64,000 nucleotides of DNA, from positions 434,001 to 498,000 of the forward strand of contig ADAC02000001.1 in assembly GCA_000163555.2 (NCBI GenBank), in the 5' to 3' direction. How positions within the stretch are numbered: position 1 is the first letter of the stretch; every line of letters begins with the position of its first letter. This document shows, in pieces, positions 34,778-37,943 of this stretch. The stretch comes from an alpha proteobacterium HIMB114. Lineage in GTDB: Bacteria > Pseudomonadota > Alphaproteobacteria > Pelagibacterales > Pelagibacteraceae. Under the pieces are notes generated by a model, which was given only the letters and a program-made list of their open reading frames with translations, was not told the DNA's origin and searched no databases. Position numbers and translations under genes: made by a program.

Positions 34778-35598
34778 ATATTTTTAATTTTTGGAAACTG
34801 ACTTCTTATTTGTGGTATCCAATTTCTTATTTGTCTAATTCTATTCGTTGGAGAAGGGTGTGTACTTAAAAACTGAGGAACTTCAGAGCCCATTTCTTTT
34901 TTCATACGCTTCCAAAGTTCTGCACCCTCATAAAGATTATATCCTGTAAGAGATGCAAAAGCTAAACCAAGGTAATCAGCTTCACTTTCTTGACTTCTTG
35001 TAAAAGGATTAAAAACACCAACTTGTAGAATGTCTACACCAGTATTTTGGCCAACAGTATTTCTTGTTCTGCTTATTGCACCACCAGTAAATATATCTAT
35101 TACTGCGGTACCCAAATTTAAAGCCATTGCTGCGCTTGCTCTTTCAACAGAATGCTTAGCAACAGCATGTGCAATCTCGTGACCCATAACATTTGCTAAG
35201 CCATCTTCATTTTTAGTTACTTTTAATATTCCCGTATAAACAGCAATTTTTCCACCAGGCATACACCAGGCATTTAATGTTTTGTCATCATCTACTAATA
35301 TATACTCCCATTTAAAATTCTTTGTTGGATCTTTTAGATTTTTACTATTAAAATAAAAAGCAATTGCTTTCTCCATTTTTTCACCAATTCTTTTAATCAT
35401 ATTAAGCGTTTTTATATCTTTGCTCATTTTAGCTTTCTTTTTAAATTGATTATAAGCTTTTATTGCATTTGCATTTATTGTTGCTTCAGGAATAATTTTT
35501 AATTGTTTTCTATTTGTAATAGGTGCAGACGTACATGAAGGTAGCAATACGGAGCAACATCCGCACCCTATATAAGTAATAAATTCTCTTCTTTTCAT
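34774..35598 (-). CDS. Tat-type lipoprotein M48 metalloprotease
   Basis: A 274-aa M48 peptidase. The N-terminus has a twin-arginine-like MKRREF followed by a hydrophobic stretch and a lipobox (LLPSC, Cys22), so it is probably a Tat-exported lipoprotein. The zinc motif is HEIAH at ~res 140-144 and the third ligand is in ESEADYLGL. Such proteins (BepA/LoiP-like) take part in envelope protein quality control. Convergent with the small zinc-ribbon ORF. Confidence 0.9.
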   Translation of the reverse strand: MKRREFITYIGCGCCSVLLPSCTSAPITNRKQLKIIPEATINANAIKAYNQFKKKAKMSKDIKTLNMIKRIGEKMEKAIAFYFNSKNLKDPTKNFKWEYILVDDDKTLNAWCMPGGKIAVYTGILKVTKNEDGLANVMGHEIAHAVAKHSVERASAAMALNLGTAVIDIFTGGAISRTRNTVGQNTGVDILQVGVFNPFTRSQESEADYLGLAFASLTGYNLYEGAELWKRMKKEMGSEVPQFLSTHPSPTNRIRQIRNWIPQIRSQFPKIKNI

Positions 35599-35626
35599 TA
35601 ACTGTATTATATTATATTATTTAAGC

Positions 35627-35710
35627 ATGAATCTAAATAATAAAGTTTTAATAGTAATTTTAGTGCTAATTTTGACATTTATAATTTATTCAGCCGGTCA
35701 TAGCATATAA
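35627..35710 (+). CDS. Putative 27-aa single-pass membrane miniprotein
   Basis: An open frame of 27 codons in the short spacer between the M48 gene and the DUF502 gene, ending 4 bp before the latter's ATG. The product would be a polar head MNLNNK, one membrane span (VLIVILVLILTFIIYSAG) and a two-residue tail. Operon-like spacing and a coherent transmembrane helix favour a real gene. There is no Shine-Dalgarno motif, however, and AT-rich DNA easily yields hydrophobic frames. Confidence 0.38.
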   Translation: MNLNNKVLIVILVLILTFIIYSAGHSI

Positions 35711-35714
35711 AATA

Positions 35715-36335
35715 ATGTCAAAAGATACTGAGATAAAAAAAATATCATTTTTAGCTAAAATTAGGAATTATTTTTTAGCAGGAATTGTAGTTTTAATACC
35801 AATAGGCATTACAATTTATTTTTCAATATTTGTAGAAAGGGCTTTTTCAAATTTATTACCAAAATATTTAAATCCTAATAATTTTCTTCCTTTTGATATT
35901 CCTGGTTTAGAAATATTTATAACATTCTGCATTATAACATTTATTGGAATGTTATCAGTTACATTCGTTGGTAGATATTTTATAAACTTAAATACCAAGT
36001 TGTTTAATAGAATTCCTGTCTTAAAAACAATTTTTAATGGTTTAACTCAGTTAACCAAAAGTTTTGCATCAGATGACACTAATAATAAGAAAAAAATGGT
36101 TTTAATTGAGTATCCAAGGAAAGGTATTTATTCTATTGGCTTTGCAACCAGCGTTAATTCAGGTGAAGTTACTAATAAAGTAGGGGAGAAAATGATTAAT
36201 ATTTTTGTTCCCACTACACCAAACCCCACAAGTGGTTTTTTATTAGTGGTTCCTGAAAAAGACGTCACGTATTTAGATATGTCTTTTGAGGAAGCTTCTA
36301 AATTTATAATGTCAGCGGGCTCTATTAAATCCTAA
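35715..36335 (+). CDS. DUF502 family membrane protein
   Basis: A 206-aa protein with two membrane segments (about res 20-40 and 66-88) and a C-terminal soluble domain. LAGIVVLIPIGITIYF, RIPVLKTIFNGLTQL, VLIEYPRKGIYSIGFAT and FVPTTPNPTSGFLLVVP are the DUF502 hallmarks. Function is not established; homologues are widespread in Alphaproteobacteria and plants. No tight linkage to neighbours other than the small upstream ORF. Confidence 0.92.
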   Translation: MSKDTEIKKISFLAKIRNYFLAGIVVLIPIGITIYFSIFVERAFSNLLPKYLNPNNFLPFDIPGLEIFITFCIITFIGMLSVTFVGRYFINLNTKLFNRIPVLKTIFNGLTQLTKSFASDDTNNKKKMVLIEYPRKGIYSIGFATSVNSGEVTNKVGEKMINIFVPTTPNPTSGFLLVVPEKDVTYLDMSFEEASKFIMSAGSIKS

Positions 36336-36364
36336 TTATTGATAATTTTTGCAGATCTATAAGC

Positions 36365-36411
36365 TGCTCAAGAGGAACAGAGATGGCTAAATCGCTATAC
36401 TCTCTTGAGCA
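36365..36411 (+). other. 10-bp perfect hairpin enclosing a ribosome-binding site
   Basis: TGCTCAAGAG at 36365-36374 pairs without mismatch to CTCTTGAGCA at 36402-36411, with a possible closing G-U pair, leaving a 25-nt loop. The left arm contains AAGAGG (36370-36375), a good Shine-Dalgarno sequence 7 nt before the ATG at 36383. No T-run follows, so a simple terminator is unlikely. Confidence 0.55.
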
Positions 36412-36472
36412 AAGTTATTATTTATGTTTTTTAGCTATTTTGTCTATAATTATTCTGTTTACTAATTATTAA
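36383..36472 (+). CDS. Putative 29-aa membrane miniprotein
   Basis: An open frame of 29 codons, ATG at 36383 to TAA at 36470, in the 194-bp spacer after the DUF502 gene. The product would have a polar N-terminus (MAKSLYSLEQSYY) and one membrane span (LCFLAILSIIILF). It has one of the clearest ribosome-binding sites in the window, AAGAGG seven bases upstream, but that site lies in a strong hairpin whose other arm is inside the frame. Nothing else is seen in the remaining spacer to 36529. Confidence 0.4.
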   Translation: MAKSLYSLEQSYYLCFLAILSIIILFTNY

Positions 36473-36529
36473 TTTTTTAGTTTATATAAATTTAATAAAA
36501 TATTGATTATAAACGTTTTTTTTAATATT

Positions 36530-36901
36530 CTAATTTATTAATTTAATTAATGAACCTTCTTGGATAGATTTGAAAAAGTCGATATTATTATTTTTTGTAT
36601 CAAATTTTGCCCATATATTTACTTTAGAAACTAGCCTAATTTCCTTATTTATAGACGCTGGCGTTTTGCCAAAGCCTATTGCAATCGAATTACCTTCTAC
36701 CCAATAAGCAATTTCTCCAAATTCCATGGTATCTCGCGCATTTTCCTCTAATTTTATACCTTTAATTGGAGTTTTAAAATAAATTTCATCACCCCATGTG
36801 CTTATTAATGAACTAAATTCTATTGATTTACTTATGATATGAGCGGTTTTAGTATCTAATAGACTTATATCAATTGTTTTATTGTTAACTAATAATTTCA
36901 T
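36530..36901 (-). CDS. Cyclophilin-like fold protein (TM1367/DUF369 type)
   Basis: A 123-aa protein whose middle carries WGDEIYFKTPIKG, then TMEFGEIAYWVEGNSIAIGFGKTPAS and EIRLVSKVNIWAKF, the pattern of small cyclophilin-like proteins such as T. maritima TM1367. No isomerase active-site Arg motif is present and the biochemical function is unknown. I start at Met 36901, since the upstream opening to 36937 adds a hydrophobic leader that overlaps the integrase promoter region. Confidence 0.78.
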   Translation of the reverse strand: MKLLVNNKTIDISLLDTKTAHIISKSIEFSSLISTWGDEIYFKTPIKGIKLEENARDTMEFGEIAYWVEGNSIAIGFGKTPASINKEIRLVSKVNIWAKFDTKNNNIDFFKSIQEGSLIKLIN

Positions 36902-36930
36902 TATTACGAAATAAATGCATTTTATTAGTA

Positions 36931-36959
36931 TTGACATCTATTATTGGTTGTATTATTAG
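36931..36959 (+). promoter_or_regulatory. Candidate sigma70-type promoter for the integrase gene
   Basis: A consensus -35 box TTGACA (36931-36936) is followed after exactly 17 bp by TATTAG (36954-36959, four of six matches to TATAAT). The predicted leader before the ATG at 36990 is about 25 nt. It lies in the 88-bp region between the divergent cyclophilin-like and integrase genes. Confidence 0.5.
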
Positions 36960-36989
36960 TAACGATAATTTATTGTTATCAATAGTAAT

Positions 36990-37943
36990 ATGAGTGACTT
37001 AATATATAAAAAAAATTTAGAAATTCAAACAATTGAAAATATTAAAAATTCAAAGGCTTTAAACACAAATAGAGCATATAGATCTGACTACAAAGATTTT
37101 ATTGATTTTTGTAAAAACAATAATTTTGATTATTTAAAACCTGACCCAAAAACAATAAGCTTTTATTTAACAGATTTATCTAACAAAAAATATAAATTTA
37201 GCACAATAAGACGAAGATTAGTTTCCCTTTCATTAGCAAATAAGCTCAATGGGAACTATATTGATACCAAACATCCTGTAATAGATGAAAATTTAAAATC
37301 CATTAGAAGAAAATTAGGAAATTATCAAAGAGGTAAAAAGCCAATTTTACTTGAGGAGTTGCATAAAATAATAAATGCCATAGAAAAAAATGAAACAAAA
37401 ATAAGAAAAATTAGAGATAAATCTATTATTTTACTTGGATTTTCAGGTGGTTTTAGAAGATCAGAAATTGTATCTTTAGACTTTGGGGATATAGAATTCG
37501 TAAAAGAGGGATTGAAAATATTCTTACAAAAATCAAAAACTGATCAGTATAGTAATGGATTTTTAAAAGGTATACCCTACTTAAATGATCAACAAATTTG
37601 TGCCGTAACATCCTTAAAAGAATGGATAAATATATCAAATATAAAAAGTGGTCCACTTTTTAGAAAAATTTCTAAATCTGAAAAATTATTAGAAAATAGA
37701 TTAACTGGACAAACAGTAGCCTTAATTATTAAAAAATATACTAAAATAGCTGATATAAATAATATTAATTTTTCAGGACATAGTTTAAGAGCTGGTTTTG
37801 CCACTGTAGCAGCTTCTTTAGGAGCTGATGAAAGAAGTATCATGAGTATGACTGGTCATAAATCATCGACAATGGTTAGGCGCTATATTAGAGAAAGCAA
37901 TTTATTTAGTAACAATGCATTAAATAAAATATCAAAGTTTTGA
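36990..37943 (+). CDS. Tyrosine recombinase / phage-type integrase
   Basis: A 317-aa site-specific recombinase. The N-terminal SAM-like DNA-binding domain spans ~res 10-110. The catalytic domain has Arg156 (GFRRSEIV), Lys183 (KSKTDQ), His264 and Arg267 (GHSLRAGFAT), His290 (TGHKSSTMV) and Tyr299 (RRYIRE), so all residues needed for activity are present. It differs from XerC/XerD in sequence around these motifs. No phage, transposon or cassette genes accompany it and I found no clear attachment sites. Base composition is like the neighbourhood. Confidence 0.92.
   Translation: MSDLIYKKNLEIQTIENIKNSKALNTNRAYRSDYKDFIDFCKNNNFDYLKPDPKTISFYLTDLSNKKYKFSTIRRRLVSLSLANKLNGNYIDTKHPVIDENLKSIRRKLGNYQRGKKPILLEELHKIINAIEKNETKIRKIRDKSIILLGFSGGFRRSEIVSLDFGDIEFVKEGLKIFLQKSKTDQYSNGFLKGIPYLNDQQICAVTSLKEWINISNIKSGPLFRKISKSEKLLENRLTGQTVALIIKKYTKIADINNINFSGHSLRAGFATVAASLGADERSIMSMTGHKSSTMVRRYIRESNLFSNNALNKISKF

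Follow-up and report, generated by a model that had tools for sequence, protein, structure and literature searches.

A conserved hairpin at positions 36365–36411 of the window, the 64,000-nucleotide stretch of SAR11 DNA analysed here, is probably (at a probability of roughly 0.6) a small antisense RNA that is encoded on the minus strand and acts in trans to block the translation of a short basic peptide. The proposal is built on computed features: the conserved structure of the hairpin, its invariant loop, the complementarity of 16–22 pairs to the start region of the peptide gene, and the co-occurrence of loop and start region among genomes. SAR11 bacteria, which rank among the most numerous cells in the sea, are considered to have few transcriptional regulators. 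An antisense RNA that is conserved and whose target can be identified would provide a concrete case of riboregulation in trans in this group.

Structure and conservation of the hairpin

The hairpin consists of a perfect 10-bp stem, in which TGCTCAAGAG (36365–36374) pairs with CTCTTGAGCA (36402–36411), and a loop of 27 nt. It is positioned between the stop codon of a gene for a DUF502 membrane protein (35715–36335, plus strand; PF04367, E = 2.8e-31), which is its conserved upstream neighbor, and the end of a convergent cyclophilin-like gene (36530–36937, minus strand; PF04126, E = 3.1e-26), which is followed by a tyrosine recombinase gene (36990–37943, plus strand). The preliminary description of the locus placed a 29-codon open reading frame (36383–36472, plus strand; start codon at 36383, stop codon at 36470–36472) in an otherwise empty spacer, with an AAGAGG ribosome-binding site paired, within the perfect 10-bp stem, to codons 7–10 of the same frame. 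The sequence bears out this geometry: five of the six bases of AAGAGG (36370–36375) are inside the stem, the 3′ arm of the hairpin is within codons 7–10, the start codon sits in the loop, and the spacer (36335–36530) contains no other plus-strand gene.

The window contains 29 perfect 10-bp inverted repeats with loops of 3–30 nt (mean of 15.1 and maximum of 30 in 50 shuffled sequences). The hairpin is the only one of them with at least five G or C bases in ten (shuffled sequences: mean 0.04, maximum 1). A 51-nt segment containing the hairpin folds with an energy of −19.8 kcal/mol on the plus strand (z = −4.0) and −21.4 kcal/mol on the minus strand (z = −4.5). The wider 141-nt segment has a z of −1.78, matched by 16 of 200 shuffled sequences, and is less remarkable than the hairpin alone. 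At the gathering score, Rfam 15 identifies six tRNAs only in the whole window, and its covariance models have no match in 36300–36530 up to E = 1. No intrinsic terminator was detected on either strand in 35500–37100, no T run adjoins the stem in the printed flanks of the hairpin loci, and a search of known phages gave no match to the hairpin locus. No published report of this hairpin RNA was recognized in the literature search, which is not proof of its absence in print.

When 61 related genomes were searched at the DNA level, the hairpin was matched strongly in four genomes of the same genus and more weakly (E = 1.2e-6) in G014, from another genus. A match in G039 scores better (E = 1.5e-9) but spans only AT-rich sequence downstream of the hairpin. 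Eight hairpin loci were collected by anchoring on the DUF502 and recombinase proteins: those of G000 (the genome of the window, a single contig of 1.24 Mb), G002, G005, G006, and G007, which belong to genus g1, and of G014, G027, and G035, which belong to genus g8. The hairpin is located 3′ of the DUF502 gene in all eight loci. Neither DUF502 nor the recombinase was found in the incomplete g1 assemblies G001 and G003. The g1 genome G004 contains the DUF502 gene and the stretch downstream of it, and the hairpin was not found in the expected place. In G036 (genus g12), the DUF502 and recombinase genes adjoin without a hairpin. An open reading frame of at least 80 codons separates the hairpin from the recombinase gene only in G000, where it is the cyclophilin-like gene, and in G006, and none is present in the other six loci. 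Therefore, the cyclophilin-like gene is not needed for the hairpin, and a minus-strand RNA would be a transcription unit of its own.

The loop segment AACAGAGATGGCTAWATC (plus-strand letters of 36376–36393; proposed to act from the minus strand) is unchanged at 17 of 18 positions in all eight genomes. It comprises 14 invariant bases that are antisense to the target start region described below, one position that is A or T, and an invariant ATC. Pairing of the ATC with GAT can give a small stem at the apex, which several of the folds contain. The exact 14-base core of the loop occurs only in G000 and G006 among 297 genomes of the order, a sample outside which the incomplete g1 and g8 genomes fall. 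The stems are GCTCAAGAG/CTCTTGAGC in g1, with one odd pair in G005, and TTTTCCAGGA/TCCTGGAAAA in g8. Between the two genera, five of the nine registered stem pairs are changed on both sides, three are constant, and one (in G005) is changed on one side. The pairs were counted with a hand-registered script; MAFFT alignments misregistered the g8 stems, so that no covariance model was built. The identity between g1 and g8 is 0.97 in the loop, 0.42 and 0.30 in the two arms, 0.46 in the spacer, and 1.00 in the element TTTGTCTA, and the DUF502 proteins of the two genera are 60–65% identical. Because the invariant loop is carried on covarying stems and the reading frame varies in length, selection appears to hold the RNA rather than the peptide, and the hairpin appears to be conserved as an RNA structure. 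The covariation is essentially one split between g1 and g8 and one wobble pair, from eight sequences and two genera, and represents few independent events.

The 18-base loop was found in 18 stretches of the genome_contigs collection, seven of which are SAR11 loci and 11 unrelated and stemless. In six of the seven SAR11 loci the stem is perfect over 9 bp or more, and the seventh locus is that of G005 with its odd pair. All seven are records of Pelagibacteraceae or Candidatus Pelagibacter that match genomes already among the eight. The loop was also found in eight stretches of viral contigs, none of which has a perfect stem of at least 7 bp. The pattern AACAGAGATGGCTA, which is too short to be informative, occurs in at least 120 stretches of viral contigs.

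Complementarity to a basic-peptide start region

The sense sequence of the loop (19 bases, up to three mismatches) was searched for in six of the eight hairpin genomes. It was found at the hairpin in each of them, and at exactly one further place in five; the sixth, G027 (79% complete), has no second place at this threshold. A control search with the reversed pattern gave two matches across the six genomes. The further place, GAACGGAGATGGCTAAA, comprises the ribosome-binding site and ATG of the same gene in all five genomes. The gene encodes a Lys/Arg-rich basic peptide, MAKRRKKAKKA..., of 38 residues in G000 and 29–38 residues in g1 and g8. It is positioned about 690 kb from the hairpin on the same contig (G000:C1, about 1162600–1162925; loci L218 and L300). 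A promoter box of the TTGAC type and a terminator-like stem accompanied by a T run belong to the gene. Its leader is strongly structured (z of −4.4 and −4.5), with a CUCC-GGAG stem around the Shine–Dalgarno sequence. The peptide does not match any Pfam family; judging only by its composition, it is probably histone-like and nucleoid-compacting. Homologues of 21–50 residues occur in nine genera of the family. In G035, two inverted copies of the peptide gene, identical over 340 bases, are present on one contig (G035:C6, 5056 and 8473; L265 and L268), which is possibly an assembly artifact.

The top of the stem together with the loop (36370–36391, minus strand) can form 22 contiguous pairs, counting G-U pairs, with GGGAGGAACGGAGAUGGCUAAA in the mRNA of the basic peptide (G000:C1, about 1162701–1162722). 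The numbers of contiguous pairs in G000, G006, G007, G002, G005, G014, and G035 are 22, 16, 20, 20, 20, 18, and 22, so that 16–22 pairs can form in all seven genomes in which both the hairpin and the peptide gene were found. The complementarity runs through the start codon into codons 2–3. A single difference is fixed between the loop, which has an A, and the mRNA, which has a G, and corresponds to a U-G pair in the antisense duplex. In comparison, 287 control starts of open reading frames of at least 80 residues, taken from the window and 18 sampled stretches of the same genome, form at most 12 contiguous pairs. The duplex energy is −43.1 kcal/mol with the target versus −30.5 kcal/mol with the best control start. 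Shuffled RNAs reach a mean of −19.7 and, as the best of 1000, −35.7 against the target, compared to −43.6 for the real RNA; they pair fairly well because the target start region is purine-rich.

The matching start region occurs in the same two of the 297 genomes of the order as the loop core, the incomplete g1 and g8 genomes again being outside the sample. Seven genera in which no hairpin was seen keep the peptide gene with a different start (GGGAGCUAAAGAUG and the like). The start regions from five of these genera were scored and pair over 6–11 contiguous bases, three of them still with energies of −26 to −27 kcal/mol. The target type is kept in G004, the g1 genome without a detected hairpin, where it forms 12 contiguous pairs with the RNA of G006. 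Among the 61 genomes, the start-region pattern with up to three mismatches is present in all eight g1 and all three g8 genomes, the G027 match being the hairpin itself. It also matches in 11 of 24 genomes of the other family, as one shared sequence without an ATG, a copy of which (L271) lies inside a coding gene. In G004, a similar start, GGAGGAACGCACATGGCTAAA, precedes the gene of another protein, MAKFSKNDDS..., which by reading is oxidoreductase-like, and G006 has a further similar match. These starts represent either a second target or a shared style of start site, and they weaken the argument for specificity a little. A type I toxin–antitoxin pair was considered and rejected, because the peptide is basic instead of hydrophobic and persists in the seven genera in which no hairpin was seen.

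Strand, mechanism and rival explanations

A −35-like element TTTGTCTA (36439–36446; TAGACAAA on the minus strand, containing TAGACA) is invariant in all eight hairpin loci, and its TAGACA is located on the minus strand 56–59 nt before the loop. The element was not seen in G004 and G036, which have the DUF502 context without the hairpin. Together with the −10-like AATAAT (36417–36422, minus strand), it predicts that the RNA starts near position 36410, at the base of the hairpin. The combination TAGACA-18-AATAAT matches 10 of 12 consensus positions, is one of the two best promoter-like matches in 35500–37100, and ends 5 nt before the hairpin. However, promoter-like matches in this region are not in excess (12 found versus 12.7 expected), another minus-strand match at 35958–35931 scores equally high, the −10 element is weak in several relatives, and in a laxer scan of a longer stretch the best plus-strand scores reach 8–9 too. 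A TGTTTACTAAT-like stretch at 36456–36466 lies beside the proposed promoter and is still recognizable in G004 and G036.

The odd stem pair of G005 is U-G on the minus strand and C-A on the plus strand, and the hairpin of this genome folds with −18.9 on the minus strand versus −13.7 on the plus strand. The hairpin of G014 shows the opposite preference, with −20.6 on the plus strand and −17.3 on the minus strand. The antisense match, the TAGACA element, the promoter-like match, and the U-G pair of G005, which is a single base change, indicate that the acting strand is most likely the minus strand.

In the proposed mechanism, whose transcription, strand, repression, peptide role, and controlling signal are inferred, transcription from the minus strand would start at or near 36410 from the promoter with TAGACA at −35. 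The RNA would fold into the hairpin, the stem of which presents the loop. The loop and the top of the stem (5′-GAUUUAGCCAUCUCUGUUCCUCUU-3′) would then pair with the Shine–Dalgarno sequence and start codon in the peptide mRNA, and the pairing would block ribosome binding, stopping the initiation of basic-peptide synthesis.

It is possible, at a low probability, that the hairpin instead functions on the plus strand, as part of the 3′ untranslated region of DUF502 or as an RNA of its own. In that case, the loop would mimic the ribosome-binding site and start codon of the peptide gene and serve as a decoy for whatever binds the mRNA: a protein, the peptide itself, or ribosomes. The plus-strand letters of the loop are nearly the same as the mRNA start region, and the stability of the plus-strand hairpin, the preference for this strand in G014, and the constant position 3′ of DUF502 are consistent with a decoy. 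Furthermore, a lax scan identified a plus-strand box (9 of 12, spacer of 15) 54–61 nt upstream of the hairpin in G000, G005, and G007. However, a stricter scan gave no plus-strand match between 35620 and the hairpin, and the stretch from the DUF502 stop codon to the hairpin is not conserved, whereas the minus-strand TAGACA is. The stem change in G005 breaks the plus-strand pair, and the fixed A/G difference between loop and mRNA is unneeded by a mimic.

The preliminary description preferred a small membrane protein, or else a regulatory leader peptide, whose ribosome-binding site would be occluded by its own coding sequence, and named a structured non-coding RNA as its alternative. The spacing of the Shine–Dalgarno sequence and ATG is plausible, ATG GCT AWA TC is kept in all eight genomes, and the frame in the window ends in a hydrophobic stretch. 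Nevertheless, translation is very improbable. The stem is retained in eight genomes of two genera with its covarying pairs, and together with the invariant loop this supports the structured RNA, but the reading frame is not kept. Its lengths are 29, 14, 33, 15, 27, 10, 10, and 24 residues in the eight genomes, with no common sequence past the stem, and the stem change turns “SLEL” into “PGKE”. The unchanged letters, third codon positions included, are those antisense to the target and the ATC of the apical stem. The first plus-strand gene that a leader peptide could control is the recombinase gene, which starts more than 500 nt further on and has a TTGACA box of its own in front of it. The frame is judged not to be a gene, and its appearance of a ribosome-binding site and ATG is explained by the loop being the antisense mirror of a real start site elsewhere in the genome. 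A hairpin with a “masked start site” can thus mirror a real one, which offers a cheap genome-wide test for similar findings.

There is little likelihood that the hairpin is a DNA-level element, such as an inverted repeat bound by a protein or an accessory site for the neighboring recombinase. The inverted repeat is no more than about 600 bp from the recombinase and its palindrome, close to where the skew of the window turns. Its arms, however, change from g1 to g8 and its loop does not, which is the reverse of what characterizes a protein-binding palindrome. Moreover, the recombinase is present in 27 genomes, yet no exact loop was found in loci outside g1 and g8, where there are five loose matches with two mismatches (L160, L196, L197, and L202). 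Equally hard to credit is a neutral relic, left when part of the peptide start region was copied and inserted in a common ancestor of g1 and g8: it would account for the 20-nt near-identity, but a fixed loop on changing, always paired stems across the divergence of the two genera points to selection, not decay.

The adjoining recombinase and known systems

The tyrosine recombinase gives the sole PF00589 match of the genome. A 33-bp palindrome of the form 13-7-13, TTAGTAACGATAA-TTTATTG-TTATCAATAGTAA (36956–36988), directly precedes its start codon. Of 37 genomes of the family, 27 gave a homologue of the recombinase (E ≤ 1e-10), compared to none of 24 genomes of the sister family, and a palindrome with a GATAA-N7-TTATC core precedes all 27 homologues, which represent 13 genera. 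The core GATAATTNATNGTTATC occurs once per genome in all 12 genomes searched, always at the recombinase. The outer arms of the site are of two kinds: ACTAAYGATAA-like at 12 loci and TTCCGATAA at 15 loci (L154–L180). The first kind of arms is found at all 11 homologues ranked nearest to the recombinase of the window, and the second kind at the remaining 15. Genera g1 and g8 each have both kinds, as if the recombinase and its site moved between lineages as a unit. The combination TTTGTCTA-N8-ATGTTTACTA was considered as a dif site and dropped, because TTTACTA persists without the hairpin and the palindrome at the recombinase is better.

Gene orientation and cumulative GC skew turn at 36–38 kb of the window. 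In 20 sampled stretches of the genome, the cumulative skew peaks at 495–505 kb with a value of 0.83 (0.81 at 433 kb). The site, at 471 kb, is close to this peak, although the far side is noisy. Because the recombinase is the sole PF00589 protein, the linked palindrome is single-copy, and the skew peak is nearby, the locus is likely a single-recombinase dif/Xer module at the SAR11 replication terminus, with putative catalysis. It fits the kind of single-recombinase systems represented by XerS, XerH, and XerL, as described in PMC2731167 and PMC9765430. The 2009 survey reports Pelagibacter ubique as being without a dif/Xer system (PMC2731167), and the passages of PMC7858055 on the dif site and Xer mention SAR11 only as a contrast. 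No published single-recombinase dif/Xer system of SAR11 was found in the portions of the literature searched.

The same site is present in twenty viral contigs (L240–L259; for example, L248:59–110 and L241:2014–2031), some of which have a second site of the other arm kind a few bases away. In L248 and L241, the two contigs whose proteins were tested, genes for tailed-phage terminase, portal or connector, and capsid proteins are located beside the site, and open reading frames of similar lengths adjoin it in other contigs of the set. These contigs are possibly candidate phages that integrate by means of the host Xer recombinase. Among known phages, the dif-like site has two weak and irrelevant matches.

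Conserved intergenic hairpins of SAR11 were described by Meyer et al. in 2009, one of them thought to be a separately transcribed non-coding RNA (PMC2704228). The contexts given in the available text of that report (rpsB/S2, rpsL/S12, ffh, methionine genes, rhtB, pntA, rnhB1, and SAR11_0636) do not include DUF502, the comparison being one of genomic contexts.

The αr14/NfeR1 RNAs of rhizobia are also trans-acting small RNAs of alphaproteobacteria, with ultraconserved unpaired anti-Shine–Dalgarno motifs on highly differing stems, and one of them was shown to silence a translation initiation region, according to the relevant sections of PMC10746234. In the same sections, these RNAs are described as having three hairpins with CCUCCUCCC and several targets, whereas the SAR11 RNA would have one hairpin with CUCUGUUCCUCUU and a gene-specific pairing that extends into codons 2–3. 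Membership in the family requires three CCUCCUCCC hairpins; one hairpin, with a different loop, was found.

A close functional parallel may be IhtA of Chlamydia trachomatis, a small RNA that represses the histone-like protein HctA (PMC4355289). In both cases, a hairpin loop occludes, or in SAR11 would occlude, the start codon of an mRNA for a small basic DNA-binding protein, and retention of the stem-loop is critical in IhtA, as stated in PMC4355289. The same paper describes IhtA as having three stem-loops and needing about 7 nt around the AUG without interacting with the Shine–Dalgarno sequence, in contrast to the single SAR11 hairpin with its 16–22 contiguous pairs over both elements. Chlamydia belongs to a different phylum from SAR11, and homology of the sequences was compared through Rfam only. 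RNA control of the SAR11 peptide would suggest a second, independent origin of such control over a histone-like protein. Most speculatively, the hairpin could encode a dedicated one-target antisense RNA that, through near-perfect 20-base complementarity in trans, controls a SAR11 histone-like peptide in convergence with IhtA and HctA. The hairpin gene lies beside a likely dimer-resolution site, in the part of the chromosome that is replicated last, and its dose could therefore couple the compaction of the nucleoid to the completion of replication.
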